From Bryobacterales bacterium F-183 (lineage in GTDB: Bacteria; Acidobacteriota; Terriglobia; Bryobacterales; Bryobacteraceae): 64,000 bases of DNA. The position numbers and the translations under genes were made by a program. The notes beneath the pieces are model-generated. The model ran no database searches and was not told the origin of the DNA. It was given only the letters and a program-made list of their open reading frames with translations. Every line of letters starts with the position of its first letter. Position 1 is the stretch's first letter. The DNA lies in NCBI GenBank assembly GCA_016865505.2, contig AP025252.1, positions 1,860,001-1,924,000 on the forward strand. Reading direction: 5' to 3'. Of this stretch, positions 13,239 through 44,446 are shown piece by piece.

Positions 13239-13249
13239 CAAAGAAAGCC

Positions 13250-15463: not shown

Positions 15464-15472
15464 ACATCCTTC

Positions 15473-20933: not shown

Positions 20934-20935
20934 CT

Positions 20936-24284: not shown

Positions 24285-24286
24285 GC

Positions 24287-25525: not shown

Positions 25526-25526
25526 C

Positions 25527-26450
25527 ATGAAGCGCGCTGTATTTACGCTAAGTCTCGATTTTGAATTGGCCTGGGGTACGCTCGATCGCGGTCGCGATGC
25601 TTTCTATCGTCCGCTTTGCCGGGCAGAAAGAGAGCAGGCCATTACGCGCCTGCTGGACCTTCTGGCGAAACATAACATTGCTGCCACTTGGGCCATTGTT
25701 GGCGCCCTGTTTGAAGATGGCGCAGACGATTTGTTGCACGCGCCGGACCTGATTGACGAGATCCAGCGTTGCCCGGTCGCGCAGGAGATCGGCTCGCATA
25801 CCTTTACGCATCCGGTGATGACGATGGTGACGCGCGAACAGGCGCACCGGCAGTTCTCGCTGGCGGTAGAGTCCGCAGCAAAGGCTGGTGTACAGCCCCG
25901 CACGATCATCTTTCCGCGCAACCAGATCGCGCATTTGGACCTTGCCCGCGACTATGGCTTCACCTGCTATCGCACGCCGGAACCGCGCTGGTACTGCGGC
26001 GCCGGCGAGCGCGACGCTGTGTCGCGACTCGGGCATCTGGCGGACGTGCTCGCGGCCACCACGCCCCGCACGGTTGAGCCAACGATCGATGAGTTCGGCA
26101 TGATGGCTATCCCCGGCTCAATGCTCTACACGCCATCCTTCGGGATGCGGCGGCACATCCCGGCATCGCTACGCGTCACCCGTGCGCGTCGCGGATTGAT
26201 GGAGGCTATCCGCAATCGTAAGGTGTTCCATCTGTGGTTCCACCCAACGGACATCGTGGTCAACATGAACGAAATGCTGGCAGGCCTGGACGAGATCTTT
26301 GCGCTGGTGGCGAAGTACCGTGAGGCCGGCGAACTGGAAGTGCAGCCGATGGTGAATTTGCGTTCCGCGCTGTTGAAGGAGATGGAAGCAAGCTCGGTGT
26401 CAACTTGCGTTGGCGCAGGCGCTCTGGCGTCGGCGGGAGTGCTGTCGTGA
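25527..26450 (+). CDS. NodB-type polysaccharide deacetylase
   Basis: 307 residues. The metal and catalytic motifs are seen: TLSLDFELAWGTLD (Asp in place of the usual DD pair; the second position is Phe), ATWAIVGALF, and EIGSHTFTHPVM with two histidines in SHxxxH. FPRNQIAHLDLARDYGFTCYRTPEPRW follows as the RxPxG-equivalent block. These enzymes remove N- or O-acetyl groups from chitooligosaccharide-like glycans. No signal peptide is visible. Its last base is also the first base of the next start (TGATG). It is the second deacetylase of the operon, along with the DUF2334 protein, so the polymer likely contains amino sugars. Confidence 0.85.
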   Translation: MKRAVFTLSLDFELAWGTLDRGRDAFYRPLCRAEREQAITRLLDLLAKHNIAATWAIVGALFEDGADDLLHAPDLIDEIQRCPVAQEIGSHTFTHPVMTMVTREQAHRQFSLAVESAAKAGVQPRTIIFPRNQIAHLDLARDYGFTCYRTPEPRWYCGAGERDAVSRLGHLADVLAATTPRTVEPTIDEFGMMAIPGSMLYTPSFGMRRHIPASLRVTRARRGLMEAIRNRKVFHLWFHPTDIVVNMNEMLAGLDEIFALVAKYREAGELEVQPMVNLRSALLKEMEASSVSTCVGAGALASAGVLS

Positions 26451-27787
26451 TGTTAGATGTTCGTTCGTGGGATTCGTTCGAGCGTGCACGCACACGCCTC
26501 GCGCCGGTGTTTGATGCGGCATCCGCGCAGAACCCGTTTCTGGCTTGGGATTGGATGTCGGCATACTGGGAATCGACGCGCCGCAGTGGCGAGCGTATCA
26601 GTTTGCTCGGTGTCTTTCGCGGGGATGAACTGATCGCTGCCACAGCGTTCCGTCTGCGTAAGAAGTACGGCGCGGCTACCTTGGTTGAGTTTCTGACCGA
26701 AGGCCGTTCGGATAGTCAGGGTATCGCCGGGGAGCAGTCCCTTGCGGTTGCCAATGCGATCCTGCAACACCTGCGTACGCGTGGTCTCAACGGCGCCGTG
26801 CGGCTGAATGAGATGGCGGAAGGCAGCCCGATGTATGAGGCGTGCCGCTTGGCGTATGGCGCCGAGGCGATGACGTGTGAGTACCCTTGCCCGTATCGCG
26901 ACCTGACGTCTGCCGCGCCGCCGGAGTCGAGTTCCAATAAGTCGTTTCAGAAGCGCATCCCGAACTATCAGCGGCGGCTCGAAGCGTTTGGCCGGGTGGA
27001 GTTGAAGGTCCTGGATTTTGATGCGAATCGCGCCGAGTGCTTGGAGTGGTTGCCGCGTTTGTTTGCACTGCACGATCTGCGTCACGCCGAGCGCCGGAAT
27101 GCGTGGAAGGACGAGCGAAATCGCGAGTTTTTAACGGATTATGCGCGTACTGCGGTGAAATCCAATCTGCTGGCGTTCGTCACGCTGTTGGACAGCGTGC
27201 CCGTCGCGTTCGACCTCGGCTTCCGTTGCGCGAACAAGTTCGTTCTGTACATCCCGGCGTTTCATCCGTCGTTTGAAAAGTTCCGTCTGGGGCACATCAA
27301 TCGCGCGATGACGTTCCAGCAGTGCTCGCGCTTGGGCATCGATCATTACGACTTCTCGCGCGGCGATAGCTTTGCGAAGCGTGTATGGTGTCACGGCGTG
27401 ATCGACAACTATTCCTGTACGTTTCCGCTCGGCTCGGGCATGCCATCGCGCTTGGCAACGTACGCCCTGCAGGCTCCCGTGCGCCTCAAGGCATGGTTGC
27501 GAGAACACAATCAAACGAAGCGCATCGCGACGATCGTGGAGTTCGCGAAGGGCCCGCAAACAAAGGCTGCCAAGGTCTCTGCCGATCCCGCACGGCTACG
27601 GCGCGAGGCGGGTCCGTTGCGGTACTCCGCACTGGCCGGACTGCCGGAAGAGCAGATGACGCAACTGGTGGAATTCGTGTTTGCGCAGCAGTGCAAGGAG
27701 TCGGCATGGCAAGTGTCGTGGCCTTCGCCAGATCTGCTGTGCGCGAAGTTGACGCCCGAAGGTCCGAGCATTGAAATCACCTGCTAG
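26450..27787 (+). CDS. CelD/BioF2-like GNAT-fold acyltransferase
   Basis: 445 residues. N-terminal FERARTRLAPVFDAASAQNPFLAWDW and the later GVFRGDELIAATAFRLRKKYGA... segment fit BioF2-like/CelD acetyltransferase-fold proteins. The C-half contains PVAFDLGFRCANKFVLYIPAF..KFRLGHINRAMTFQQ and HYDFSRGDSFAKRVW, corresponding to the acyl-acceptor part. Enzymes of this kind modify sugars or cell-wall units in polysaccharide loci. A ~100-residue C-terminal extension (after residue 340) has no family I recognise. It overlaps the deacetylase by one base and ends in a CTAG shared with the convergent GT4. Confidence 0.72.
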   Translation: MLDVRSWDSFERARTRLAPVFDAASAQNPFLAWDWMSAYWESTRRSGERISLLGVFRGDELIAATAFRLRKKYGAATLVEFLTEGRSDSQGIAGEQSLAVANAILQHLRTRGLNGAVRLNEMAEGSPMYEACRLAYGAEAMTCEYPCPYRDLTSAAPPESSSNKSFQKRIPNYQRRLEAFGRVELKVLDFDANRAECLEWLPRLFALHDLRHAERRNAWKDERNREFLTDYARTAVKSNLLAFVTLLDSVPVAFDLGFRCANKFVLYIPAFHPSFEKFRLGHINRAMTFQQCSRLGIDHYDFSRGDSFAKRVWCHGVIDNYSCTFPLGSGMPSRLATYALQAPVRLKAWLREHNQTKRIATIVEFAKGPQTKAAKVSADPARLRREAGPLRYSALAGLPEEQMTQLVEFVFAQQCKESAWQVSWPSPDLLCAKLTPEGPSIEITC

Positions 27788-28866
27788 GTGAGTTCGCGGA
27801 ACCACGCGATGCTTTGTCGGGCGCAGGTTTCCCAACGATAGAGGTCGGCACGCTGGCGCCCCGCATTGGCAAGGGTGTCGCGTAGCCGGCTGTCTTCGAT
27901 CACTCGCTGCAATGCGCTGGTTAGCTCCGCCTCGCTACGCGGGTCCACGGTGAGCGCGCCATCTCCTGCGACCTCCGGCAGACACGAAGCGTTCGACGTC
28001 ACCACCGGGACGCGAGCGGCCATCGCCTGCGCGACCGGAAACCCGAAGCCTTCGTACAGCGACGGGTACACGAACGCGGTCGCGCCGGCAAACAACCCCG
28101 GCATGTCCGCTTCAGGCACATAGCCGAGGTAACGCACGTTGCGTACTGCGTTCTGACGCAGGCGCTGCATAGTGAGCGTGGAGTTCCAACCTTCTGGACC
28201 AGCAATCAACAGCTCATGATCCGTGTCGAGGCGCGCAAAAGCGTCGAGCAGAAGATCTACGTTCTTGCGGGGTTCGATGGTTCCCGCGTACAGCAAGTAT
28301 GGCTTGGCACGTACGGTGGGTGCCGCATCGAAGTACGCTTGGGGGACACCCGAGTAAATGGTCCGGATCTTCGCAGGGTCCAGCTTGAGGATGCGGATCG
28401 CATCCTGCCGCGTATGTTCCGACACTGCAATGAGTCCCCGGGCACGGCGAATCACGCGGTCTGCAAAGGCTTCGTCCGCCGCGCGATTCGCAGCAGTATG
28501 CGTCTCAGGCAGGAGCCAGCAAGTCATGTCATGAATGGTGGCGGACACGGGTACGCTGGCTGGCGGATGCTTCACCTGATTCGAGACGTGAAATAGCGAG
28601 TACTTGCGAATAAACGGCGACAGCGCGCCGGGCATCACCTTATTGAAGAACTGTAGCGCGACGATGCGAGGTACGGTGGCGGCGAGTGAGAAGTTCGATC
28701 CGTCGTGATTGAGTGTACCGAGCGACGAGCCAAGAAACGGGTACGCGTCGAACATGCCTGGTGCTTGCTCTTCGAGCGCGCGCAGCCAATGGTAGGTGTA
28801 GTTTTTGACACCAGCACTGCGCAATAGCAGCGACGCCGCATCCACCAGGATCCTTGGTGAGGTCAT
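27784..28866 (-). CDS. GT4-family glycosyltransferase
   Basis: 360 residues, GT-B fold. Start RILVDAASLLLRSAGVKNYTYHWL; the C-half carries YLLYAGTIEPRKNVDLLLDAFARL, LLIAGPEGWNS and YPSLYEGFGFPVAQAMAARVPVVTSNASCLPEVAG, the standard donor-binding region of this family, very like mannosyl/rhamnosyl transferases. It is last on the minus strand in the wing sigma factor, GH95, AsnB, GT39, GT4. ATGA overlap with the GT39 gene. Its stop interlocks with the stop of the plus-strand operon. Confidence 0.88.
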   Translation of the reverse strand: MTSPRILVDAASLLLRSAGVKNYTYHWLRALEEQAPGMFDAYPFLGSSLGTLNHDGSNFSLAATVPRIVALQFFNKVMPGALSPFIRKYSLFHVSNQVKHPPASVPVSATIHDMTCWLLPETHTAANRAADEAFADRVIRRARGLIAVSEHTRQDAIRILKLDPAKIRTIYSGVPQAYFDAAPTVRAKPYLLYAGTIEPRKNVDLLLDAFARLDTDHELLIAGPEGWNSTLTMQRLRQNAVRNVRYLGYVPEADMPGLFAGATAFVYPSLYEGFGFPVAQAMAARVPVVTSNASCLPEVAGDGALTVDPRSEAELTSALQRVIEDSRLRDTLANAGRQRADLYRWETCARQSIAWFRELT

Positions 28867-30611
28867 AGCGGCTGGTTGGTGAACACGTATTTGCCGCCGC
28901 TTTCCTTCAGCGTGTGCAAGTTGGTGGTGATCTTCCGCAATCGCTCGAGTTGCGGCTTTTCGATGCAGAGGTAGTAACGTTCCGGGCTGCCCCAGGCGCG
29001 CGTGAATCCTGCGTCATCCAAAAAGACTTGCGGCGCGCCCGGCGCGTAGGAGCCGTACTCCAGATTGTTCACACGGCCATTCCAAAGCAGGGCGGTGCGG
29101 TTGGTGTAAAAGAAGACGGACGAGAACGTGTAGTACTGGTTGTCGACGATCAAACGTCCGGGTGGCGCATGGTTCAATGCCTCCGCTAGTGGCCGCGAGG
29201 CGAGGTACGGATCAAATGTCACCAGTGCCAATCGCGCGGCATGCAGGAACAGCACCATCATCGCGGCTAGGCCCAATGCCGAGCGTCGCCACGCCGCGTA
29301 CAGGCCAACGGCGAACGCTAGCCCCGCAATCATCAACGGTGGACGCAGGTAGGCGAACGAGTCAATGGTAAGGTCCTGCATGTGGCCGAGCGACAGTGTG
29401 TACGCATCGGGGTTCGATGTCAGCGCGCTTGAGATGTCGCCGGGGGCGGGCAGGTTCCACACATGCGACAGGATGCCGAGGATCGTGAGCAAGGCAGCGG
29501 CGGTGGTGGCAGCCAGCGCCCAGCGCGGTACATTGCCTTGCGTCCGTACCATCGCGCTTGCCAGCAGCATCGCCAAGGCGGGGTAGCAAGGCATCGAATA
29601 GTATTCCTGCGTGGTCGAGAACGTGAAGAACACCAGGATGAAGCCGACCCAGCAGAGGCACAACAAGCGCACGCGACCGGCGCGGGAATCCGCACGGAAG
29701 CTCAGCTTGGCGATGCCGCCGAACCAGGCCGACCACGGAAAGAGCCACAGCAGATGCAAGAGCCAGAACATCGCGCGAGGCACGGTGTTGTAATCGCGCG
29801 GGTGCCGCATGTTGAGGAATCGCAGCACGTGCTCGTTCATGAAGTAGAACCAGAAGAAGCCGCGATACTCGCCGGGTACGCTGCGGAAGGTGAGGTCGAA
29901 GTACGGCGGATTGGCAAGGGTGGCAGCCACATGCCATGGGGCCGCAATCGCTAACGCCAACAACGTTCCCGTAAAGGGGCGAATTCGCTGCCAGGCAGTG
30001 CGCGCGAACAACTGGCCGGAGAACGCAAGGTACAAGCCTGCGGCCGCAACAGGGAAGACTACGGCGATCAGGCCCTTCAGCAACAATCCCGTACCTGCGG
30101 CGACGTACGCGATGTAGATCCAGCGTGTCGGGTGCTGTTCGTCGTCGTCCAAAGCGCGTATGAATCCCCACATGGCCAGCGCGATGGTGAACGTCAAGGT
30201 GACGTCCGGGATCTGGATGCGAGTGAACAGGAACAAGCCAATGCACGTGCCGATGATGAGACCTGCTCGCAGCGCGGTTTGTACGCAGCCGAAGGCCCAC
30301 AGCGCGAACTCAAAGACCAGCCAGGCGAGTGCGATGGAACTGAGCGCGACAGGGATGCGCGCAGCCCAATCCTGTACGCCAAAGATCGCGTACGAGCCCG
30401 CCATGAGCCAATAGATGAGCGGCGACTTTTCAAGGTACGCGACGCCATCGAGGCGCGCGGTTACCCAGTCTCCGCTTTCCAGCATGTTGCGCGCGATCTG
30501 CGCCTGCACGGCGTCCACGTCGTCCATCAAGGACGGTGGACTCACGATGCAGCCCAAGTAGATCGCGGCGGCAACAGCGATGACAATGGCGCGCGCTTTA
30601 GCGGCCTGCAT
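28863..30611 (-). CDS. GT39/ArnT-like membrane glycosyltransferase
   Basis: 582 residues with about 11-13 membrane helices. The first outer loop has DDVDAVQAQIARNMLESGDWV, including the acidic residues (D-D, D) needed by PMT/ArnT-type enzymes, followed by VAYLEKSPLIYWLMA. These transferases use polyprenyl-phosphate sugars on the periplasmic side to glycosylate lipids or proteins. The C-terminal ~100 residues form a soluble domain (PPGRLIVDNQYYTFSS...). It overlaps AsnB by 14 bases and the next GT4 by four. It could decorate the exported polymer or a lipid carrier; the acceptor is unknown. Confidence 0.85.
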   Translation of the reverse strand: MQAAKARAIVIAVAAAIYLGCIVSPPSLMDDVDAVQAQIARNMLESGDWVTARLDGVAYLEKSPLIYWLMAGSYAIFGVQDWAARIPVALSSIALAWLVFEFALWAFGCVQTALRAGLIIGTCIGLFLFTRIQIPDVTLTFTIALAMWGFIRALDDDEQHPTRWIYIAYVAAGTGLLLKGLIAVVFPVAAAGLYLAFSGQLFARTAWQRIRPFTGTLLALAIAAPWHVAATLANPPYFDLTFRSVPGEYRGFFWFYFMNEHVLRFLNMRHPRDYNTVPRAMFWLLHLLWLFPWSAWFGGIAKLSFRADSRAGRVRLLCLCWVGFILVFFTFSTTQEYYSMPCYPALAMLLASAMVRTQGNVPRWALAATTAAALLTILGILSHVWNLPAPGDISSALTSNPDAYTLSLGHMQDLTIDSFAYLRPPLMIAGLAFAVGLYAAWRRSALGLAAMMVLFLHAARLALVTFDPYLASRPLAEALNHAPPGRLIVDNQYYTFSSVFFYTNRTALLWNGRVNNLEYGSYAPGAPQVFLDDAGFTRAWGSPERYYLCIEKPQLERLRKITTNLHTLKESGGKYVFTNQPL

Positions 30612-32466
30612 GCACGCCCCAGCGCTTCATCCAAGAACAAAGCATCAACAATCCCCAAAGATGGTAGCCGTAGTTGGCGCGGCGATCCATGTGCGCGGTG
30701 ATCACGCGCTCGACCTCCGGCCAGTGCAGCAGACCCGTCGCTTCCACCGATTCGCGATTCACGGTGTCGAGCAGCAGAGGCTTGAGCGATGTGCGCAACC
30801 AGTGGTGTGTCGGGATGTCGAAGCCTTGCTTGGGCCGGGTCAGAATCGTCTGCGGCAACTTGTCGCGCATCAGGTCTTTCAAGATGAACTTCAGCTTCGC
30901 CCCGCGTACCTTGAAGCGTTGCGGCAGCCGCGCAGCGAACTCCACGATGCGGTGATCCAGGAACGGCGGCCGTACTTCTAAGGAATGCGCCATGCTCATG
31001 CGATCGCACTTGTACAGGATGTCGTCCGGCAGGTAATGCAGCTGATCAATCCACATCGCGCGGTTGGCAAACGGCCGTGTGTACGGCGTGCGCGAATCGA
31101 CATAGTCGCCCGTGGGTACGGTTGCCACGCGCTTCATCAAGCGCTCTTTCTCAGCCTGAGCGAACGTGCCGTTCCAATAGAGATGCGCCGCGACGGGATC
31201 CTGCAGCGACCCTGCCAAGAAGCGTTTGGCTTTGTACTCAAAACCGATCTTTTCGTCCGACACCGGCAGCATCTGCGCGACAGCTAGGCCCGCACGGCGC
31301 AACAACGACGGAAACAACCGTGCAACCGCCGCATAGTTGTCCGCCTTGTACGTCTCATAGCCGCCGAACAACTCATCCGCGCCTTCGCCACTCAGCGACA
31401 CCGTGACATGACGTCGCGTCATCTTCGACAGAAACCACACTGGCAGCGCACCGGCATCGGCGCTCGGCTCATCTGAATAATGCGTAAGCTGTTCGATAGC
31501 GTCCGCAAGGTCCTGCTCAGGGTTCAGGTCGAACTCGTGATGATCGGTGTTGTACCGTTCGGCGATCTCTCGAAAATAGGGGCTTTCGTCGAACTTGCGG
31601 CCCTTGAACGACACCGAAAACGTCTGTAACTTGCGGCCAGCGGCTTCGGATGCGTAATGGAGCACGGTGGATGAGTCGATGCCGCCCGAAGCCCAGATGC
31701 CCAGCGGTACATCGGATACGAGATGCTCCCGCACAGACGCGCGCAGCAACGCATCGAGTTCCTCGCGTGCCGCTTCATAACGCATGTGGTCGTCGGGCTC
31801 AAACTGCAGGGTCCAATAACGCTTGCGATGCGTGATGCGGCCGTCCACCCATTCCAGCCACTCGCCGGGATTCAACTTGCGAATGCCTTCGGCCAATGTG
31901 AACGGCGCCGGTACCCAGTTCAACGACAGATAGTGGCTGAGGCCTTCGGAATCGAGCCGCCGCTCGACGGCGGGCAGTGCGAACAGTGTCTTCAACTCAG
32001 AGCCGAAGTACAGGTCCTCGCCGCTCTCGTACAGGTACAGCGGCTTGATGCCCATGCGGTCGCGACACAGTACCAGACGCTGGCGGGATTCGTCCCAAAT
32101 GGCGAAGGCGAACATGCCACGCAGCTTTTGGAAGCTCGCGGTGTCCCACTCCAAAAAGGCCCGTAAAACGGCCTCTGTATCGCATTTGGAATCGAACTGA
32201 TGACCTTTGGCGATCAGCTCTTCGCGGATCTCGGCGTGGTTGTACACCTCGCCGTTGAAGACAATGACGCAGCCGCCCGCATGCATGGGCTGCTTGCCTC
32301 CGGCAAGGTCAATGATACGCAGGCGTACCGCGCCAAGCGAGACCGTATCGGACTCATAGACGCCTTGTTGATCGGGACCGCGATGGACTATCGACTGCGT
32401 CGCGCGTTGGATCAAATCCGGATCAGGACGGGAACGCCTGTGGGTGAAACCAGCGATTCCGCACAC
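30598..32466 (-). CDS. asnB: Asparagine synthase-like glutamine amidotransferase
   Basis: 622 residues, GTG start. The second residue is the Ntn-type nucleophile cysteine (MCGIAGF). The glutaminase half has IVHRGPDQQG, RLRIIDLAGGKQPM and VIVFNGEVYNH. The synthetase half has VPLGIWASGGIDSSTVLHYA (PP-loop SGGIDSS) and SLSGEGADELFGGYE. The complete enzyme set is present, so it can transfer ammonia from glutamine after ATP activation. The asnB symbol follows homology only: genes of this shape inside exopolysaccharide loci often amidate a uronic acid or other glycan carboxylate. Neighbours are GH95 upstream (21-base gap) and GT39 downstream (overlap). Confidence 0.88.
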   Translation of the reverse strand: MCGIAGFTHRRSRPDPDLIQRATQSIVHRGPDQQGVYESDTVSLGAVRLRIIDLAGGKQPMHAGGCVIVFNGEVYNHAEIREELIAKGHQFDSKCDTEAVLRAFLEWDTASFQKLRGMFAFAIWDESRQRLVLCRDRMGIKPLYLYESGEDLYFGSELKTLFALPAVERRLDSEGLSHYLSLNWVPAPFTLAEGIRKLNPGEWLEWVDGRITHRKRYWTLQFEPDDHMRYEAAREELDALLRASVREHLVSDVPLGIWASGGIDSSTVLHYASEAAGRKLQTFSVSFKGRKFDESPYFREIAERYNTDHHEFDLNPEQDLADAIEQLTHYSDEPSADAGALPVWFLSKMTRRHVTVSLSGEGADELFGGYETYKADNYAAVARLFPSLLRRAGLAVAQMLPVSDEKIGFEYKAKRFLAGSLQDPVAAHLYWNGTFAQAEKERLMKRVATVPTGDYVDSRTPYTRPFANRAMWIDQLHYLPDDILYKCDRMSMAHSLEVRPPFLDHRIVEFAARLPQRFKVRGAKLKFILKDLMRDKLPQTILTRPKQGFDIPTHHWLRTSLKPLLLDTVNRESVEATGLLHWPEVERVITAHMDRRANYGYHLWGLLMLCSWMKRWGVHAGR

Positions 32467-32487
32467 AGTGGGTTAACTCATTCCATG

Positions 32488-34947
32488 CTAGCGGAACCGA
32501 ACGATGCGCCGTTCGCCAGCCTGCAACTTCAAGCTGTACCCACCAGCCACATCCGGTGCCGGTTGCAGGCCTCGCGGGACGTCGCCTTCCGGCACACGCA
32601 GCAGTACGTTGGTGCTTTCCGCGGGTACAAGCGCCACTTGCAACAAGCGACCTTTGTCCCACGCGATGTCGACCTCGATACCGCCTCTCGCCCGCAGCCC
32701 ACGCACGCTGCCTTCGCGCCATTCGGGCGGCAACGCCGGCAGCAGGTACAGCTCACGTGGGACATGCGATTGCAGCAGCATTTCTGCCATCGCTGCGGCC
32801 GCACCGAAGTTGCCGTCAATCTGGAACACCGAAGAGTTGCGGCCCGCTGGATGCGTATCGAACAGGTTGGGACCCGTGCTGTGCTGCATCAACATCACCA
32901 GCGATTCATGGGCCTTTGGCGCGTCGTGCAGGCGAGCCCAGAGTCCGATGGCCCAGGCGCGGCTCCACCCTGTGTACGCGCCGCCAGCGGCCAGACGACG
33001 CTCCAAAGAAACGCGCGCGGCCTTCGCCAGCGCCGGCGTACCTTGCGGTGTGATGTCGCTGCCCGGGTACAGACCGTACAGATGGGACATGTGGCGATGA
33101 TCGGGCTCGGCCTCGCCAAAGTCCTTGGACCATTCGAGCAACTGCCCATGCTGCCCCACCTGGTACGGCATAAGCTTGGGCAGGGCCTCGCGCAGCTTTG
33201 CGGCGAACGGCTCTTCCTGCTTCAGGTCCAGCATCGCGACGGCGCTGATGCAGTTGCGGAACAACTCTGCCGTTAACGCCATGTCCATCGTGCAGCCGGC
33301 GGACACCTCCGCGCGGCGGCCCTTTGGATCGATGAAGCGATTCTCCGTAGACACCGACGGGCACGTCGTGAGGCGGCCCTGCTTGTCCAAAATCAGCCAG
33401 TCCAACAGGAACTCCGCGGCGCCCTTCATCGCGGGCCACGCCTCGGTACGCGCGAACTCCTCATCGTGCGTGAACAGAAAATGCTCCCACAGATGGGCGC
33501 ACAACCATGGCGCGCTCATGCCCCAGTTCGCCCAGCGAGGTTCGCCTTTGCCTTCGCCGACAGGTCCGGTCTGCGCCCAAATGTCGATGTTGTGATGCGC
33601 CACCCAACCCTTGGCACCATAGTTGACCTGCGCCGTCTTGCGGCCATTCACGGCAGCATGCGCGATGAGGTCGAAGAGCGGCTGGTGGCATTCTGACAGG
33701 TTGCACGTCTCAGCTGGCCAGTAATTCATCTGCACATTGATGTTGGCCGTCCAGTTCGCGCTCCATGGCGGACGTACGGATTCGTTCCAAACCCCCTGCA
33801 AATTTGCCGGTTGCGACCCCGGCCGCGAGCTCGCCATCAGCAAGTAGCGGCCGTACTGAAAGTACAGCGCGAGCAGATCTGGGTCCTGATCCTGTGCGAA
33901 GCTTCTGATGCGTTCGTCCGTCGGACGCGCGGACTTCTCGGACCTCGGCAACTGGATCCCGCAGCGGCCGAACAGCTTCAAATGATCGGACACATGGCGT
34001 GCCCGCAACGCGTCGAACCCACGCTTAGCGGCATCGCGCAGACCTTTGTTGCACGCTCCTGCGATCTCGCCCCGGCTCTTGGATGGTGTGCGATCAAACC
34101 CCGCAAAGCCGGTCTGCGCGTAGATCAGCAAGGTGACGTCGCGTATGCCGTGGAACGATAGTGTGTCCTGCTCCTTGCGCCCCGCTACGCCACCGAGCGC
34201 ACGTACGCGCGTCTCAAAGTACATGCCCTCGCCGGTGGCTTTGCTGTAACGGACGGGGTCCGCGCTTTGCAGGTAGTTGGGGTCCACATGCGACGGCGCC
34301 TTGCCGGATACTGCGAACGTGGCGACGTCCGGCACCGATACGGCATGCTGCAAGGGGCATTCGGCGCGCACCGCGAACGATAATCCCGCAGGGTCTGTAG
34401 TGGACAAATGCACGACGATCACCTGATCCGCAGAGGATGCGAAGTACTCGCGTACATGGTTGTGCCCGCCATGCCGGAACTGCACCTTGACGATGCCCGT
34501 CTCGAGGTCCAACTCGCGTTCGTACCCGCTCACTTGCGCGTCGTTGATGCCCGCAAAGTCCAGCCACACGCTACCCAACGTCAGGTAGGACTGATTGTAC
34601 GGACCCTGCATCTGCCGCGCCTCGGCATCGGCGGCTGGATAGTCCTCGTCTTCCAGCACGAGCTTGCGTACCCGCGCCAGATGCGCCTTGGCGTTGGGAT
34701 TGTTCCACTCTCTCGGCGACCCCGACCAGAGTGTATCTTCGTTCAACTGCAGCCGGTCTTTGGACACACCGCCGAACACCATCGCGCCCATGTGCCCGTT
34801 GCCGATGGGCAAGGCTTGGGTCCACGCGGCGGCAGGTTCGCGATACCAGAGTCGAACACGGCGGGAGGTCGAAAACTGCAGCGGGATGGGTTCCTGCGCG
34901 GCTACTGCTGTGGCTGCCGCGGCAGCAAGCAGATTCCGGCGCGTCAT
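32488..34947 (-). CDS. Secreted glycoside hydrolase family 95 (alpha-L-fucosidase/galactosidase)
   Basis: 819 residues from ATG 34947; the alternative GTG four codons upstream has its GAGG site touching it and is less likely. An N-terminal [16 protein letters not shown] points to Tat or Sec export. GH95 motifs are strong: [17 protein letters not shown] (catalytic Asn region), [12 protein letters not shown] (general acid Glu region), [17 protein letters not shown] and [20 protein letters not shown] (Asp that works with the Asn pair). Family enzymes invert alpha-1,2-L-fucose or related alpha-L-galactose linkages. It sits four bases after the ECF41 sigma factor gene. It may trim host/plant glycans or the organism's own polymer. 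Confidence 0.92.
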
Positions 34948-34963
34948 ACGGCGGTCCACCTCA

Positions 34964-35836
34964 CTACTGTCTCAAATCAGGCAGCTTGTCGGGGTTGCGT
35001 ACGATGTAAACGGTTCGGATGTGGCCTTCAGTATCGAGGTCCAGCGCGAGCAAGGTCCGCACCTCGCCATTGTTCGAGAACACCACTGCGGGCAGGCCCC
35101 CGGAGAGCACCGGAGTTACCTCATTGGCATCGCTCTTCTTGGTGATTCCCGCCATGAAGCGCGAAATCCGGTCCGCGCCGTAGATCGGGTTGATCGCGGC
35201 GGATGCCTTGCCGCCACCGTCGGAGTAGAGGATCGCGTCGCCGCGCATGAGGTCGAGCAAAGCGGCGGTATCGCCCGTTTCGCAGGCTGCCAGAAACGTC
35301 TGCAGGACGGTTTTGTGACGTTCCGGGTCCACCTCAAATCGCGACCGCTTGTCCCCCAACTGCTTGCGCGCGCGGGTCACCAACTGACGGCAGTTGGCCT
35401 CCGATGTTTCGAGGACCTGTGCGATATCCGCGTAGTCGGCGTCGAACACCTCGCGCATCAGAAAGGCGATGCGTTCGGGTGGGGATAGCGATTCGAGGAC
35501 GTGGAGGAACGCGATGGACAGCGAGTCCGCCAACTCGGCATGACCCTCAGGACTTTGCCGGGCGCCTTCCACGCGCGTTACCAGCGGTTCCGGCAGCCAT
35601 GTGCCGACGTATGTTTCGCGCTGGTGCCGGGCGGACTTCAGCGCATCGAGCGACAGCCGCGCGACGATCGAGTACAGGTAGGACTTGGCCGAGCGGACCT
35701 CCGCCGGGTCCACAGCCTGCCAGCGCAGGAACGCATCCTGCACGATGTCCTCTGCGTCCGCGCGGGTGCCCAGCATGCGGTAGGCGAGAGCAAATAACTG
35801 CGGGCGAAGGTCTTCAAACTCGGCGGCACTCTGCAT
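34964..35836 (-). CDS. sigJ: ECF41-type RNA polymerase sigma factor (SigJ-like) with SnoaL-like C-domain
   Basis: 290 residues. Region 2 ([33 protein letters not shown]), the ECF41 linker motif WLPEPLV, region 4 with [26 protein letters not shown], and a C-terminal SnoaL-like domain ([24 protein letters not shown]). ECF41 factors use this C-domain to control their own activity rather than an anti-sigma factor. The start is placed at ATG 35836 because a matching promoter lies at 35848-35874; starting at 35875 would put that promoter inside the gene. It leads the minus-strand glycan wing. The usual ECF41 partner (COE-type gene) is not seen next to it. Confidence 0.88.
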
Positions 35837-35847
35837 CGCAAGAGGAT

Positions 35848-35874
35848 GACGACCGTGGTGCAGGATTTGTGACA
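35848..35874 (-). promoter_or_regulatory. ECF41-type promoter in front of the sigma factor gene
   Basis: Read on the minus strand: TGTCACA (35874-35868), exactly 16 bases, then CGTC (35851-35848). This is the published ECF41 target consensus TGTCACA-N16-CGTC as I remember it. The expected start of transcription would be about 35841, five or so bases before the ATG at 35836, so the message would be almost leaderless. It suggests the sigma factor drives its own operon. Confidence 0.75.
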
Positions 35875-35895
35875 ATCCGGGCGCAGAAAATTGGT

Positions 35896-37983
35896 TTAGG
35901 CGCGAATCTGAGTAAGATACTCGACGGCGTCCGGTACGGTCAGGGGTGGTGCAAATAGGTACCCTTGCGCGAACATCGTGCCGGCTTCCATGGCCAGTTG
36001 CGCGTGCACCTGGTCTTCCACACCTTCGGCAAGCGATTCGATGCCCAAACCCTTGGCCACCGTACAGAGCGTCCGAACGATGTCGGCCGCTTCTTCATTA
36101 GTGGTCATGCTTTGCACCAGTTGCCGGCTGATCTTGACCGAATCAAAGAGCCCGCGCGACAGATACCGCAACGCTTGTGGCTCAATCGTGGCGTTATCCA
36201 ACCGGAGCCGTACGCCCAGGCTCTTCACCTGATGCAAGGCCAACGCCGCTGTCTCGCCGTCGCCGGAAAAGGCACGCTGGTTGATCTCCAGCACCAAGGC
36301 CGACGCGTCGATCCCCGCCGTATTGAGAATGTCTTCTACGCGCGACGCCAAGCCCGGCTGCCGGACCTCGCGAGGCGAGACATTGATGCCCACGTACAGC
36401 GGCGGGTCACTCGGGAAACGATGCTGCAACTGCCGGATGGACACCGCGGCATGGCGCAAACTGAACACACCCAGCGGAATCACCAGACCGGTGTTTTCGG
36501 CATGGGTCAAGAACTGGTCCGGCGCGAGTACGCCACGCTCCGGATGCCGCCAGCGCAGCAGCCCTTCAAAGCCCGCCACCGAGCCGTTTTCCAGGCGGAT
36601 CACCGGCTGATAGTAGATTTCAAACTCGTCCAGGTCCAGGCCGCGCTGTACCTCGAGCGACAGTTCCAACCGGCGGATCGATTCCTGCTGCATGGGCAGG
36701 TCGAACAACGCGATGCGCGATCCACCTTTGCTCTTGGCCTCACGAACCGCAAGGTCCACGTCGCGCAGCATCTCGGTGGCCTTCCGGTAACCGTCGTGCC
36801 ACAGCGCGACGCCGATCGTGGCGCAGGCGAACACCTCCGTACCTTCGAGCAGAAACGAATGTCCGAACTCGGCCTGCATCTTGGCAGCCGCTTCCTGCGC
36901 TTCCCGCAGATCGTCCACACCGCCGAGCAGCACCGCAAACTCGTCCGAGCCGAGGTACGCCACCAGGTGGCTTTCGCCGCCTTCGCTCGAACGCACAGCA
37001 CGCTGCAGGCGGGACGCCGCTTCAATCAACAACTGATCGCCGGACTCGTGCCCGAACACCGAGTTGATGGCCGCGTACTGATCCAGGTTCAGCAGTACGA
37101 CTGCAAAGCCCCAGCGCCGGTGACCTTCGCGATACTCGATGGCCTTTTGGAGCGCGTCCATCAAAAATGTGCGATTGGGGAGGCCGGTGAGCGGGTCGTA
37201 AATACGCTTTGCCGTCGTATCCTTCATCACGCCGGCGATGCGTAACGCGGTTCCGTTGGCGCCTTCGCGCTGGATCTGCCCGCGTACCTCGACGTGACGG
37301 TAACTGCCGTTCTTGTGACGGATGCGATGCTGGCTCAGGATTTCATTGGGCCCGCCGTCGGAGCTGACCTCGCTCAGCAACAGTTGCAGGCGCGATTGGT
37401 CCTCTTCATGGACGCGGCCAAACCAGTCCTCCGGCGTACACTCGAGTTCCGTGTCGTCAAAGCCGATCAACTGCTTCCAGCGTGATGAGAAGTGAATCGC
37501 CCCCGAGCGGAGGTCCCAATCCCAGATGCCGTCGCCGGTGGCTTCGGCCGCGAGTTCAAATCGTTGCGCCCGTAGCCGTGCCTCGTCACTTTCCTTCTTA
37601 CGCTTCAGGTGAAAAGCCAGCCGGGCCAAGGCCATCTGCGGGTCCCCGGTAGGAGCCACACAATCGCTGGCGCCGGTGCGCATCGCCTCTATCGCGTCGG
37701 GGCCGGTGGCGGTGATCAGAATCGGGAGCAGGCTATCCGGATACGTGGCGCGCAGCAACCGCAGGACATCGAGCGCGGGACGTCCCCCATCAACGGTGGG
37801 CGTCTCAAACAGCACCAGGTCCACACGCTGCAGGGGAATGATCTGCGCCGTATCCGCCGACCCGCTGGAGTGCAGAACCTCGTAGCCGAGTTCCCCCAGC
37901 GCCAGCGACAACGCGCTGCGAGCGGCCGGATCGCCATTCACCACGAGGATCTTCTGTCTGTCCGGATGCACAGGCACCCTCAT
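35896..37983 (-). CDS. REC-PAS-GGDEF-EAL protein with degenerate motifs
   Basis: 695 residues. Order: receiver (residues ~11-125), PAS with PAC-like tail (~140-255), GGDEF (~265-425), EAL (~440-690). The receiver has DLVLFETP where an acceptor aspartate is expected, and APTGD in place of the usual K-P, so phosphorylation is unlikely. The GGDEF site reads GSDEF. The EAL domain starts EGLLRW, keeps GINVS, AEGVE and QGY, but the loop-6 DDFGTGYSS is DNATIEPQA and LKID reads VKIS. Cyclic-di-GMP cleavage is thus doubtful; synthesis may remain. It could serve as a binding sensor for the polysaccharide locus. Divergent from the gene at 38036 (52-base gap). Confidence 0.88.
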   Translation of the reverse strand: MRVPVHPDRQKILVVNGDPAARSALSLALGELGYEVLHSSGSADTAQIIPLQRVDLVLFETPTVDGGRPALDVLRLLRATYPDSLLPILITATGPDAIEAMRTGASDCVAPTGDPQMALARLAFHLKRKKESDEARLRAQRFELAAEATGDGIWDWDLRSGAIHFSSRWKQLIGFDDTELECTPEDWFGRVHEEDQSRLQLLLSEVSSDGGPNEILSQHRIRHKNGSYRHVEVRGQIQREGANGTALRIAGVMKDTTAKRIYDPLTGLPNRTFLMDALQKAIEYREGHRRWGFAVVLLNLDQYAAINSVFGHESGDQLLIEAASRLQRAVRSSEGGESHLVAYLGSDEFAVLLGGVDDLREAQEAAAKMQAEFGHSFLLEGTEVFACATIGVALWHDGYRKATEMLRDVDLAVREAKSKGGSRIALFDLPMQQESIRRLELSLEVQRGLDLDEFEIYYQPVIRLENGSVAGFEGLLRWRHPERGVLAPDQFLTHAENTGLVIPLGVFSLRHAAVSIRQLQHRFPSDPPLYVGINVSPREVRQPGLASRVEDILNTAGIDASALVLEINQRAFSGDGETAALALHQVKSLGVRLRLDNATIEPQALRYLSRGLFDSVKISRQLVQSMTTNEEAADIVRTLCTVAKGLGIESLAEGVEDQVHAQLAMEAGTMFAQGYLFAPPLTVPDAVEYLTQIRA

Positions 37984-38035
37984 TTATCGACCGCGGGGGA
38001 GGGGAACTTTAAGGATCTTGTGTTAGCATCCGCAC

Positions 38036-38383
38036 ATGTCGGCGTGGAACTTTGAGGGTAGACAGTTCCTCCCTTTGCGCAACAGTGAGGGTGGGCAGGT
38101 CAATGGCGATACGCGATTTCTGTACCACCAGTCGGGCGACCTTCTCACCGCGACCTACAGCGGCGGGGGCATCCGGGCCGGGTCGATGTTAGGTACGGTC
38201 GCCGCCGACGGGCAGCTTCACTTCTGTTACCACCACCTCACGGATGGGGGCGAGTTACGGAGCGGAGTCTGCCGGTCGCGCCCGGAACTCCTGCCGGACG
38301 GTCGCATCCGGCTGTACGAGTCCTGGCAATGGACCCTGGGAGGCGACCTCGCCACCGGAGAATCCATCGTCGAAGAAAAATGA
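38036..38383 (+). CDS. Small conserved hypothetical protein
   Basis: 115 residues, no signal peptide or membrane helix. Sequence is rich in beta-strand and turn residues: NFEGRQFLPLRNSEGGQVNGDTRF, LTATYSGGGIRAGSMLGTV, LHFCYHHLTDGGELRSGVCRSRPELLPDGRIRLYESW. I recall similar proteins under the doubtful label N-acetylglutamate synthase, but nothing here looks like an acetyltransferase. Divergent from the GGDEF gene and followed by a strong hairpin. The function is unknown. Confidence 0.6.
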   Translation: MSAWNFEGRQFLPLRNSEGGQVNGDTRFLYHQSGDLLTATYSGGGIRAGSMLGTVAADGQLHFCYHHLTDGGELRSGVCRSRPELLPDGRIRLYESWQWTLGGDLATGESIVEEK

Positions 38384-38385
38384 GA

Positions 38386-38425
38386 TATCCCTTTCGTGTC
38401 AGATCGGTCTGACACAAAAGGGATA
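38386..38425. repeat. Long palindromic hairpin between convergent genes (REP-like)
   Basis: Left arm TATCCCTTTCGTGTCAGA (38386-38403), loop TCGG, right arm at 38408-38425 complementary over 17 of 18 bases. The core GTGTCAGA/TCTGACAC resembles palindromes I associate with REP-like elements of acidobacteria. It lies between the ends of the genes at 38383 and 38467. There is no run of T after either arm, so a simple intrinsic terminator is not shown. Confidence 0.7.
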
Positions 38426-38466
38426 CACAAAACAGCAGAATGGGGTAGGTGCTTTCTTGAGGCTGC

Positions 38467-41400
38467 TTACTCGACCGCGCCCTTGATCCACTCCAGAATC
38501 GTCATGTATTCAGGCGAGTTCTTCGTCCACCGGACCCCGCCGCCGTGCGCCAGGACCTTGGAATCCACCACGCCTTCCTGCTCCGCGCTCGACGTCGGCT
38601 TCCGCAGAATGAGACTCTCTTCCGGATTGTCCACATTCACGACCTTCCGCGCCGTACTCCAGCTGCCGTCAAAGATCGCGTGCGACGCATGACAGTGCAC
38701 GCAGGCATACCCGTCGCGTCCGCGCTTCTCCAGAATCGGCTGCACGTACCCGCGGAAGTACGTCTCGTCCAGCTTCCGCGTATTCTTCGTGACCGTCGTA
38801 GCGCCGGCAGGCATCGGCGGCGGTGGAGGCGGCTTCGGCAGGCTCGCTTCCACCTGTTTGGACAGCGGCCCGAGTTCTCCCGCGACCTCGATCACGCCGG
38901 GGAATCGCGTCGGCCGTACCATCAGTCCCGCGGTCTGCGCCAGTTTCTTCATCGTGGCATCGGGTGACGACAGCAGCGGCAGCAGCGCCTTCGAAAACCG
39001 CTCGGCGCTCTGCCCAAAGAACGCAATCTGCTCGACGTCGTTGCCAATGCGGTTGTACTGCGGTGGGAACGTATCTTCCACCTTGTTCAGCGGCTCGTAC
39101 ACATCGGCATGGCGCAACTCAAAATCGCCCAACGCCGCCAGCAAGGTCTTGCGCTGGTAATCGTTGTTGCCTTCCAGTACCTTCGCGAACTTATCCGCCA
39201 GGCGCGACTCCACCGCCAGGCGACCCTTGATCACGCGTACCTTGTCCTCATCGCGACCCAGAAGCGGAATCCAGTTGTTATAGAAGTACCGGATGTTCTC
39301 ATCCGCGATGTTGTAAATACCTTCGGTCAGGTTGCGGTTCACCCAAGCATGCTGCGGCTTCTCGATCTGTGCCAGGAACGTATCCTCGATCCTGCTGCGC
39401 GACGCCGGGTCCGCATTCCAGAACCACATCTGCCACAAGCCCTTCAGCGCTTGTGTGCGAATCGCCGGTTCCGCTGCCTTGGATGCTTCGATCAGCGCGG
39501 TATCCAAACCCGGGCGCGACGCCAATCCCGCAAAGTGCTGTGCGAACACGCGCGTTGCACCCCAGCGTGTACGTTCGTCACCCTTGGTCAGCGCCTGTTC
39601 CAAAGGCGTGGTGGCCAGCCCTGGATGCCGCGAGTACGCCTGCCGAACCGCCCATGCCGCCGTACGCCGCACCAGCTTGCTCGAATCGCCCAGGCGGACG
39701 ATCAGCAACTGCAGCGACGCAGGATCGGCAATTCGTCCCATCGCCTCCACCGCAGCCTGCCGGACGTACGGATCGTTTGACCCCGCAGCCGCCGTCAGGT
39801 CCGCGCCGCCTACCCAGTACTGATCCAACTGCTGCAGCATCTCGGCCGGGTTTGACGACAACGCCGCCACCGGGGTCGCGCTCCAACGTCCGCCCTTGCC
39901 AGGGCCCGGATAGTACGCACTCAGCGCCAGCACCGACATCTGAGTCTCGCGGAACGGCGTACGGAAGTTCTCATACGCCTGGATCGGGTCCATCCAGCCG
40001 CCGAACTCCTGTTGCCGCTTCAGCAAATACTGTAATCCCTTGGCGACCTTTGGATGCTCACGCGGAATCCCCGCTGCGTGCAAGGCCCAGAGCGCGTGCC
40101 CGGTTTGGAACTCCGTCTCCAGTTCCTTCTCGCCGAACTTTGCCGCCCACTGGCCGCTCGGCCGCTGCAGCGACAGGATGCGCTCGGCATTCGCCGCGAT
40201 CTTTTCCTTGTACTTTGCGCGATCCATGTCCGCCAAGGCCAGGGTCTGGTAGCAAAGGTCAATGGTGTTCTTCACCTCGCCCTTGGCCACAAACTCCGGC
40301 AACCTTGGATCTTTGGACGCGACCCACGAATACCAGGCCACTTCATGCGCGCTCACCAGCGGCGTATTGCCGTTGGTCTCATCGCTCGGCAACTTGTCGC
40401 GACCCGCATAGTACAGCTTCAAGTACTCGTTGACGCCATTGTGGAAGGACGCACGCTGCTCTCCGGCGATCTCCGTTTCATAGATCCCCAGCAACGTCGA
40501 CATGCGGCTCAACACATTGGCCGCCGCCGAAATCATGCGGGACCACACCGCGCCTTCCTTCTCAAACCCATAAAACGGCCGCGGATTGTTATAAAACCGC
40601 TCCGTCATAAACTGCAGTTGCTGCCGCTGTACCACCGGGTATCCGTTGCGCGTCGCGTACATCTGCGCGCGCTGGGTAAAGTGCGTGGCATGGCAGGCGA
40701 CACACAGCGACGTTTCCTGATGCAGGCTCGACACGCGATCGTAAATACCGCCGCGCCGCGGCGTATTCGCGTGCCAGGAATCGCCGGCGCCCATCGCAAA
40801 ATCCACCGCCGCGCGAACCGCATCTTCCGGCTTGGCGTACGGCGGCACATCGTACACGCGAGTCCGCAGTTTGTATTCCGGATGATTGGCGCGGACGCAC
40901 ACATAGTACGTGCCCGCTTCCTTGAGGACACGAGTGGTGAACTTATTGCCGGGCAGCGCCTGCACCTCATGCGGCAGCGCCACCGGATCTTCACCCTCAA
41001 AGTACGGTGCGATCTTGCCGTCGGCGCCCACGCGATGCACGGACACATCCACCGGCAGATGGTCCCGCTCCATCAGTTCGATCTGGAAGTACACCAGCTT
41101 CGGCTTCGTGTCGCGGAACTCGAACTTGTACCAATCCTGCTCGCCCATCGGATCTTTGGGTTTCGGCGTTTCGGGAATCGGGATGTACGGATTCTCGTCA
41201 GCGGAGGCAAACACCACCGAACCCAGCGGTACGACATTGGCCTGCCGCCACGTATTGTTCGGTTCGCGCTTCAATAGCGCGGACCCCGGCCAGCGCGTCG
41301 CCTTCAACTCATAGCTGCCCGTCGACCCCTGCACCACAAACCGCATCGATCCGCCGGCCGGTGCGGACACGAGCGTCGTATAGTCGCCATCGCCCGTGTG

Positions 41401-41658: not shown

Positions 41659-43359
41659 CTAGGCCCGATCATCCAAAATCGACTTCAGCCGTTGATATCC
41701 TGCCCGGCTGACAGGCAGTTGCGTACCATCGAGCAGCACCGCGATCTTCGAATCCTTGGTGTACGGCTCAATCTTGGCCACACGTTCCAGATTCACGATG
41801 TGCGAGCGATGGATGCGTAAAAACCGCTTCGGGTCGAGGGACGCCTCCAGACTCGAAATGGTTTGCTGTTTCAAATACCCTTTTTTATTGCTGTACAGGC
41901 ACACATAATCGTCCTGCGCCTCGACGTAATCGAGCTTATCGATCGGGATAATGTGTACCTTCGGGCCATCCTTCACCACGATCCGCTCGCTATGCGGCTG
42001 TTCCGGCGACCTCGCCTCGCGCCTCAACTCAGCGGCTGCTTCTGCAGGACGACGGTTGTTCTCGCCCATTCTCTGCTTGGCGCGAGTCAAGGCGGTTTGG
42101 AAGCGATCCATCGAAAAAGGCTTCAGCAAATAATCGACGGCGTGCGCGTCAAACGCCTTCATCGCGTACTGGTCAAATGCCGTCGCAAAGATCACAGCCG
42201 GCTCATGTTCGATGAGTTCCAGCACTTCAAAGCCATCGAGCTTCGGCATCTGGACGTCCAGAAACACCAAGTCCGGTTCCAGCTCATTGATGACCTTTAC
42301 GGCCTCAAATCCGTTGCTACATTCGGCCAAAACTTCGATCTCCGGCGCGCTTTCGCCGAGGTATTCGCGAGTCACCAGCCGCGCCAGTTCCTCATCGTCC
42401 ACCAGTACACAGGTGATGCGGCCGTTCGCTGCAGCCGCCTTCTTCTTCGGAGCCGCAGCGGCCGGATCCGCCGCGCTTGGTGACGACGGCTTCGACAACG
42501 CTCGCAGATCCAGCAATACTTCGCGAGCCGACTGATACCGTTCATCGGCATCCTTTTCCAGGCACTTGCGAACAATGCGGTCCAACTCCGCCGGGACCTC
42601 ATAGTTGAATCGCGCCATTGCCTCGGGCTGCGCCGTCAGGATCCGGGCCAGCGTCTCCTGGCTATTGGCTCCGTCAAACGGCACCCGGCCAGTAGCCATC
42701 TCGTACAGCACCGCACCCAGGCTGAACAGATCGCTCCGCGCATCCACTTCGCGACCCAGCGCCTGTTCGGGACTCATATACTGCATCGTCCCCATCACCA
42801 CGCCAACATCGGACATCGCGCGAGTCTCGGCGCTATCCCTCGCCTGACCCGGCTTCGGCGGCGGAGCACACACCCGCGCCAGTCCAAAATCCAGGACCTT
42901 CACATGCCCGCGCCGGTTCACAATAATGTTGCCGGGCTTGATGTCGCAATGCACCACACCGCTCTGATGCGCGGCGTCCAAAGCATCGGCCACCTGCGAA
43001 CCGATGGACACAATCTCCTTGAGCGGCAGCGACCCATGTTCCAGGCGGATGTTCAACGGTTCGCCCTCGACATGTTCCATGACGATGTAGGCTTGCCCGT
43101 CATGCCGCCCGATGTCGTAGACGTGGGTGACGTTGGGATGATTGAGCCCGGACGTGATCTTGGCCTCTTGCGTAAACAGTTGCAGCCGGGCCGGATCATT
43201 GCAGACTTCGGTGGGAAGAAACTTGACGGCCACCTGCCGGTCGAGCCGTTCGTCCGTGGCAAGATACACCTCGCCCATGCCTCCGGCGCCCAGCTTGCGC
43301 AGGATCCGGTAGTGCCCAATGGTTTTTCCGCTCGAAAGACTGGCCGCCGAGTTATCCAA
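41659..43359 (-). CDS. Ser/Thr protein kinase fused to a LytTR-type response regulator
   Basis: 566 residues, apparently from a TTG start at 43359 (an in-frame stop lies four codons upstream). The kinase (residues ~16-285) has GAGGMGEVYLA, AVKFLP (catalytic Lys), HCDIKPGN (Asp present, Arg before it is Cys), DFGLAR and GTMQYMSPEQ. After an Ala/Lys/Pro linker comes an intact receiver with VDDEELARL, FLDVQMPKLDGF (acceptor Asp), FATAFDQYAMKAF and LLKPF. The final ~100 residues are a LytTR DNA-binding domain (KVHIIPIDKLDYVEAQDDYVCLY, FLRIHRSHIVNLERVAKIEP). One polypeptide thus joins a Hanks kinase, a phospho-acceptor domain and a DNA-binding domain. Divergent from tRNA-Sec; the target genes are unknown. 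Confidence 0.92.
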   Translation of the reverse strand: MDNSAASLSSGKTIGHYRILRKLGAGGMGEVYLATDERLDRQVAVKFLPTEVCNDPARLQLFTQEAKITSGLNHPNVTHVYDIGRHDGQAYIVMEHVEGEPLNIRLEHGSLPLKEIVSIGSQVADALDAAHQSGVVHCDIKPGNIIVNRRGHVKVLDFGLARVCAPPPKPGQARDSAETRAMSDVGVVMGTMQYMSPEQALGREVDARSDLFSLGAVLYEMATGRVPFDGANSQETLARILTAQPEAMARFNYEVPAELDRIVRKCLEKDADERYQSAREVLLDLRALSKPSSPSAADPAAAAPKKKAAAANGRITCVLVDDEELARLVTREYLGESAPEIEVLAECSNGFEAVKVINELEPDLVFLDVQMPKLDGFEVLELIEHEPAVIFATAFDQYAMKAFDAHAVDYLLKPFSMDRFQTALTRAKQRMGENNRRPAEAAAELRREARSPEQPHSERIVVKDGPKVHIIPIDKLDYVEAQDDYVCLYSNKKGYLKQQTISSLEASLDPKRFLRIHRSHIVNLERVAKIEPYTKDSKIAVLLDGTQLPVSRAGYQRLKSILDDRA

Positions 43360-43423
43360 ACTGTCAGTCTATCAACCTGCCGGGGCAAGACCAACGCACC
43401 GGGTGACTGCTAAACTGCCATGC

Positions 43424-43517
43424 GGAAGCCAAATTTGGCCGGTGTCAGGCCTGGTCTTCAAAACCAGTGAACGGTACTCGTATCGTTGGTGGGTTCGACT
43501 CCCACTGGCTTCCGCCA
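43424..43517 (+). tRNA. selC: tRNA-Sec (selenocysteine, anticodon TCA)
   Basis: 94 bases. An eight-base-pair acceptor stem pairs 43424-43431 (GGAAGCCA) with 43506-43513 (TGGCTTCC); the discriminator G and an encoded CCA follow. The anticodon stem CTGGT/ACCAG encloses loop CTTCAAA, placing TCA at 43458-43460. A long variable arm pairs AACGGTAC with GTATCGTT. The T stem is GTGGG/CCCAC with loop TTCGACT. The eight-base acceptor stem, long variable arm and UGA-reading anticodon are diagnostic. It would be charged with serine and converted to Sec by SelA. selA, selB and selD are not in the window, nor is an obvious Sec-containing gene. The mrr gene starts 15 bases after the CCA. Confidence 0.95.
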
Positions 43518-43531
43518 AGCGCACTCGTTGC

Positions 43532-44446
43532 ATGTCTATTCCTGACTATCAATCTCTGATGCTGCCGGTGTTACGTGCGGTTGCCGACCGCGAAGAGTAC
43601 ACCGTAGCTGCGATCCGCGCCAATACGGCCGCCGCGTTAGGGCTATCCGCTGACGAATTGGCCGAACGGCTTGCTAGTGGAACCCAGGCGGTGTTTGCGA
43701 ATCGGATTGGGTGGGCGGTCCAATACCTCAAGGCAGCTGGAGTCATTCGAGCCGTGCGGCGCGGGGTGTATCAGGTGACGGATCGAGGCCTAGACCTTCT
43801 CGCGACGCGACCGCCGGAGTTGTCGGTTAAGGCACTGCGCCGGTACCCCGAGTTCTTGGAATTTTTGGCTCGTGCTGCCGGTAATCCGTCAGCCGGCACC
43901 GTTGCTGCTCCTGTCAATGAAAACAAGGCCACACCCGAAGAGCTCCTGGAGTCGAGTTTCAAGGAACTGAGGCTCGCCCTCACACGAGATCTGCTGGATC
44001 AGGTTAGCAACGGCTCGCCAGCCGCCTTCGAACAGATCGTCGTCGATCTTCTGGTCGCGATGGGTTACGGCGGTTCTGTAGAGGATGCGGGCAAAGTCGT
44101 GGGCCGCTCCGGCGACGGCGGTATTGATGGAGTCATCAAGCAGGACAAGCTCGGTCTGGATGTCATTTATATCCAAGCAAAGCGCTGGAAGGATAATGTC
44201 GGCAGCCCGGAAGTGATGAAGTTCTCGGGCAGCCTGACCAAACGCCACGCTAGCCGGGGAGTGTTCATCACAACATCATCCTTCACCAAGGACGCGATGG
44301 ACTTTGTCGAATCCATGCCGCAGAAGATCGTCCTGATCGACGGCCTCCAACTCGCCTCACTGATGATCGAACACAACGTTGGTGTCGCGCCGGCGAAGTC
44401 GTACACCATCAAGCGCATCGACCAGGATTACTTCGACAACCTTTAG
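43532..44446 (+). CDS. mrr: Mrr-type restriction endonuclease
   Basis: 304 residues, the same length as E. coli Mrr. The N-terminal half is a winged-helix Mrr_N-type domain (YQSLMLPVLRAVADREEYTVAAI...AVQYLKAAGVIRAVRRGVYQVTDRG). The C-half is a PD-(D/E)xK nuclease: FEQIVVDLLVAMGYGG, GRSGDGGIDGVI (catalytic Asp) and VIYIQAKRW (QxK motif), then RGVFITTSSFTKDA. Mrr enzymes cut methylated DNA. The start is ATG 43532, after the tRNA-Sec CCA; no clear ribosome site precedes it, and a longer frame would run back through the tRNA. It has no modification or partner gene nearby. Confidence 0.9.
   Translation: MSIPDYQSLMLPVLRAVADREEYTVAAIRANTAAALGLSADELAERLASGTQAVFANRIGWAVQYLKAAGVIRAVRRGVYQVTDRGLDLLATRPPELSVKALRRYPEFLEFLARAAGNPSAGTVAAPVNENKATPEELLESSFKELRLALTRDLLDQVSNGSPAAFEQIVVDLLVAMGYGGSVEDAGKVVGRSGDGGIDGVIKQDKLGLDVIYIQAKRWKDNVGSPEVMKFSGSLTKRHASRGVFITTSSFTKDAMDFVESMPQKIVLIDGLQLASLMIEHNVGVAPAKSYTIKRIDQDYFDNL

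Follow-up and report, generated by a model that had tools for sequence, protein, structure and literature searches.

The locus analyzed here raises the question of which genes are controlled by a sigma factor whose gene carries its own consensus promoter and stands directly ahead of a row of glycan genes. A preliminary description proposed an autoregulated factor dedicated to a glycan modification operon and lacking its usual COE partner. The window comprises 64,000 nt of Bryobacterales bacterium F-183 (contig AP025252.1, positions 1,860,001 to 1,924,000), and positions in it are given below as counted from its first nucleotide.

ECF41 Sigma Factor

The gene at 34964-35836 (minus strand, ATG start) encodes a protein of 290 aa, which was assigned to the SigJ/SigX4 family by profile matches and phmmer. 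Its scores of 342 bits for TIGR02957 (SigX4; cut-off 323) and 335 bits for PRK09636 (SigJ; cut-off 271) uphold its identification as an ECF41 sigma factor, and, judged by its sequence, the product is an ordinary, genuine member of the group. The TIGR02957 match covers model positions 2-280 of 281, so that the large C-terminal extension of the SigJ/SigX4 type is present. Sigma region 2 and region 4 domains were detected (PF04542, E 8.6e-16; PF08281, E 1.3e-14), and no SnoaL-type domain was reported by Pfam at E 0.001. The protein contains the DGGG and NPDK motifs, which recur in 82 and 83 relatives, respectively, out of 97. Among proteins of solved structure, M. tuberculosis SigJ (5xe7, E 8e-52) is the nearest; the phmmer match spans residues 4-235, and this likeness concerns the protein only. 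The ECF41 gene is present as a single copy: no other gene of the 6.28 Mb genome passes the cut-off of TIGR02957, and the runner-up reached 68 bits. In a tree of 35 ECF41 proteins, including the one studied (P0001), those of the 17 loci of relatives, and 18 taken from the 80 named loci, with the fragment L152 excluded, it grouped with the proteins of genomes G050 and G081 with support of 99/98.

Gene Neighborhood

The genes flanking the sigma factor gene encode a PAS-GGDEF-EAL protein and a GH95 family glycoside hydrolase; neither a COE gene nor an anti-sigma factor gene adjoins it. The GGDEF-EAL gene (35896-37983, minus strand) ends 59 bp before the sigma ATG, and a terminator-like hairpin of 19 pairs with a T-rich tail (38385-38426, minus strand) located upstream of it is likely the upstream boundary of the unit. 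Downstream, all on the minus strand and in the order described previously, are the genes for GH95 (32488-34959, GTG start; PF22124, E 1e-170), an AsnB-type glutamine amidotransferase (30598-32466), a GT39/PMT-type membrane glycosyltransferase (28863-30611), and a GT4 glycosyltransferase (27784-28866), the last three assigned by profile matches, as was the GGDEF-EAL protein. The AsnB-type protein passed the cut-off of asn_synth_AEB and fell short of the one set for the XrtA amidotransferase model. As described, the GH95 start (GTG, 34959) is four bases past the sigma TAG; this GTG is kept in the sister genome (G001), and the alternative ATG at 34947 is not. The statement that the subsequent genes follow with overlaps holds for AsnB-GT39 (14 bp) and GT39-GT4 (4 bp), but GH95 and AsnB are separated by a 21-bp gap. 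Co-transcription of the sigma factor gene with GH95 is likely from the four-base gap and the lack of a terminator between them.

The glycan row and an exopolysaccharide cluster on the plus strand (12375-27787) are convergent; the cluster encodes Poly_export, chain-length/kinase, Wzy_C, sugar transferase, GT4, and deacetylase domains. Several genes of this cluster resemble XrtA/PEP-CTERM-associated families, all below the NCBIfam cut-offs. Elsewhere in the window, the product of the minus-strand gene at 41659-43359 is a fusion of a Ser/Thr protein kinase domain with a response regulator receiver and a LytTR DNA-binding domain, and may thus unite kinase and transcription factor in a single polypeptide. 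An Mrr-type restriction endonuclease is encoded at 43319-44446 (plus strand), its start region overlapping the kinase open frame on the opposite strand. The gene at 57652-61284 (minus strand) encodes a large outer membrane protein of the TonB type, which contains CarboxypepD_reg and OMP_b-brl_4 domains.

Predicted Promoter Sites and a Proposed CMD Partner

A perfect copy of the predicted ECF41-type promoter, TGTCACA-AATCCTGCACCACGGT-CGTC, was found directly ahead of the sigma factor gene (35874-35848, minus strand), as had been noted from the sequence. Its end is separated by 11 nt from the sigma ATG (35836), whereas the program-made ORF list had placed the start at a TTG (35875) that falls within the motif. 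The prediction that the factor activates its own gene through this consensus promoter is well supported, and the 11-nt gap suggests that the transcript should be nearly leaderless.

The genome contains only one other exact TGTCACA-N16-CGTC site, at C1:1632844-1632870, situated 10 nt before the ATG of an AhpD/CMD-type gene (C1:1632881-1633333; PF02627, carboxymuconolactone decarboxylase). The promoter and gene together occupy C1:1632844-1633333 (L156:6845-7334), and the CMD gene is 263 kb from the sigma factor gene. The search for further sites in the genome, which the preliminary description had suggested, thus yielded one. The COE partner described as missing is absent in cis only; for the genome as a whole the description is wrong, given the CMD gene behind the second exact site. 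According to the accessible text of the survey by Wecke et al. 2012 (PMC3426412), 126 of 373 ECF41 factors have no adjacent COE gene, so the lack of one in cis does not exclude membership in the group.

Counted over the whole genome, exact sites do not exceed the chance level. Two were found with an N16-17 spacer, compared with six for a reversed-pattern control, and 2.85 are expected from base composition with N16 alone. The case for a regulon therefore rests on the position of the sites: both lie 10-11 nt ahead of start codons, and chance would place about 7e-6 exact sites within 30 bp of the sigma factor gene and about 3e-5 before any of the five CMD genes of the genome. Relaxed scans were discarded as a route to more targets, showing no excess over the controls: 60 sites against 53 with one mismatch allowed, and 9 against 16 with N15-17 and YGTY. 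Beyond the two exact sites, five of these nine (four further N16 sites and one other; 4751779 and 4926687 were left out) were inspected by ORF listing and had no clear target gene; the site at 2168844 from the one-mismatch set of 60 was also inspected.

The association of ECF41 with CMD was also analyzed in 101 genomes, that of F-183 included. CMD homologues adjoin ECF41 genes in 3 of 13 relatives with ECF41 (G002, G051, and G009), and in G009 the motif points at the CMD gene beside ECF41. The same split as in F-183 was found in G034, with ECF41 on contig C9 (L145) and CMD on contig C11 (L193); exact TGTCACA-N16-CGTC copies are located 20 nt before the ECF41 start and, for CMD, 24 nt before an ATG. 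A CMD homologue (E 1e-25) was present in 7 of 14 genomes with ECF41 (E 1e-30) versus 11 of 87 without it (Fisher p 0.003, kinship uncorrected). Against strict pairing, ECF41 went undetected at E 1e-30 in 11 of the 17 other genomes that carry a CMD homologue. In one of these 11 (G091, contig C199, L201), exact ECF41-type motifs precede the CMD homologue in both directions.

Comparison with the Sister Genome

The sole same-genus genome compared, G001, is a draft of 860 contigs with 91% completeness. Neither ECF41 (E 1e-30) nor a CMD of this type (E 1e-25) was detected in it, so that the sigma factor and CMD are both present in the F-183 genome and both absent from G001. On contig C9, GGDEF-EAL is followed by GH95 after about 40-55 bp with no sigma factor gene between them, and the contig continues past GH95 into the start of AsnB. 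Contig C823 carries GH95-AsnB-GT39, and contig C18 carries GT39-GT4 with a convergent FemAB gene. The glycan proteins of G001 share 85-92% identity with their window counterparts. Whether the sigma factor was lost or gained, these genes occur there without it. The overlaps of the contigs are only 94.1% (C9/C823) and 92.2% (C823/C18) identical, which indicates that the draft probably mixes related lineages and that the empty sigma place was seen in one lineage only.

Two traces were found at the empty places. A 30-nt block identical between the window and G001 covers the last four sigma codons, the stop, and the GH95 start. At the CMD locus of G001, 38 bp separate an EamA gene from the conserved stretch that comes next, and CGTCGCA-N16-CGTC, with two changes in the -35 element, occurs in register with the promoter; the joint chance of this match is about 5e-5 at one register and about 1e-3 over 30, and the identity of its spacer is no higher than chance. 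It seems that a damaged copy of the CMD promoter was left there. Together, the block and the damaged promoter favor loss of the sigma factor gene and CMD in the sister, perhaps with fair probability, rather than gain in the window species; both are readable as gain.

ECF41 Loci and Glycan Genes in Other Genomes

In total, 97 ECF41 loci from other genomes were taken for comparison, 17 from relatives and 80 named, some of them on short contigs. Within the stretch available for each, homologues of GH95, AsnB, GT39, or GT4 were found near none of them (0 of 97) at E 1e-8. A GT39 match was present in 87 of 101 genomes, including F-183 and G001. Among nine GT39 regions of other genera, some cut by contig ends, AsnB adjoins GT39 in eight and GH95 in none. 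From these counts and contig C9 of the sister, the sigma factor and the glycan genes are not conserved together, and a dedicated glycan regulon was rejected; as a reading of the sequence, a glycan operon dedicated to ECF41 is not supported.

The motif TGTCAC, 16-18 nt, YGTY was detected within 400 bp upstream of the sigma factor gene at 18 of the 97 loci. At 11 of these 18, all Burkholderiales as labelled, 8-11 nt separate the motif from the start codon, and the F-183 gene, with a gap of 11 nt, falls into this type. ECF41 transcripts with 8-11 nt from the -10 element to the start codon should be leaderless or nearly so; the word "leaderless" is absent from the accessible text of PMC3426412. 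In the two nearest ECF41 relatives (L139 and L140), the motif precedes a flavin oxidoreductase gene upstream of the sigma factor gene, and no relative of this oxidoreductase was found in the F-183 genome at E 1e-20. An amine-oxidase-type flavoprotein in cis there, versus CMD in trans here, looks like partner exchange.

Proposed Regulon

The reading that we favor, with a probability of about 75%, is a small regulon split over two loci, in which ECF41 activates itself and CMD in trans and the glycan genes are neighbors. The sigma factor would be controlled by its own fused C-terminal domain, as expected from the family, and in its active state would direct RNA polymerase to its own promoter (35848-35874, minus strand) and to that of the CMD gene, 263 kb off. 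The four-nucleotide gap and the lack of a terminator-like site between the sigma factor gene and GH95 make read-through into the glycan row possible; such transcription would probably be a by-product or a minor input. If correct, this reading means that an orphan ECF41 can be resolved by a genome-wide search for its exact promoter, which finds the separated partner. It may also present a natural case of a sigma factor and its partner going missing together although unlinked.

Alternatively, ECF41-GH95-AsnB-GT39-GT4 might form an operon transcribed mainly from the sigma factor's own promoter, so that exopolysaccharide or another surface glycan would be changed together with CMD. The single strand throughout, the short gaps and overlaps, the uninterrupted sigma-GH95 junction, and the convergence on the exopolysaccharide cluster are consistent with it, as is the lack of a sigma-70-like promoter in 27000-39000; however, that scan was crude, and with zero sites against a mean of 2.9 in shuffles it tells little about this genome. 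A promoter of the GGDEF-EAL gene could read through into the row, the sister has the GGDEF-EAL-GH95-AsnB start without the sigma factor, and glycan genes accompany none of the 97 other loci; on this balance, the operon reading is unlikely.

A related proposal is that an ECF41 promoter captured a resident glycan row, one signal then acting on CMD in trans and on GH95-AsnB-GT39-GT4; in the sister, the sigma factor and CMD would have disappeared jointly, leaving its glycan genes to the GGDEF-EAL promoter. This proposal appears doubtful; if true, it would link a stress sensor to surface polysaccharide editing.

That the motif is a chance match, with the sigma factor gene transcribed only from the upstream GGDEF-EAL gene, agrees with the unremarkable number of exact sites and with the one exact N16-CGTC site of the sister (C485), which is found where an unrelated open frame ends and is directed back toward that frame, but is highly improbable given that both F-183 sites immediately precede the ATGs of two gene types that ECF41 factors are known to control and that the short spacing recurs at other ECF41 genes with their own motif.

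Comparison with Known ECF41 Systems

None of the literature matches listed concerned ECF41; most subscription papers were outside the search, so that this absence proves little. The view that the arrangement had not been reported is wrong for its class: in the accessible part of PMC3426412 (Table 4), orphan ECF41 factors with their own promoter are already described, 38 of 126 having TGTCACA-N16-CGTC before their own gene. The F-183 factor shares with these orphans the lack of an adjacent COE gene and the motif before its own gene; in addition, the second exact site of its genome points to a CMD partner in trans, a trait on which the accessible text about those orphans is silent. The same promoter search is applicable to all 126 of the 373 factors of that 2012 survey without an adjacent partner. 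B. subtilis, by the same paper, has no ECF41 factor. CMD is a partner family of ECF41 in the accessible texts of PMC3426412 and PMC6180224. In S. meliloti, the single identified target of the ECF41 factor RpoE9 is, by the accessible text of PMC6180224, the CMD gene SMb20029, which has the same type of promoter. That gene lies upstream of the RpoE9 gene and is likely cotranscribed with it, whereas the two genes are far apart in F-183. The ECF41 and CMD arrangement described here is no new kind of system.
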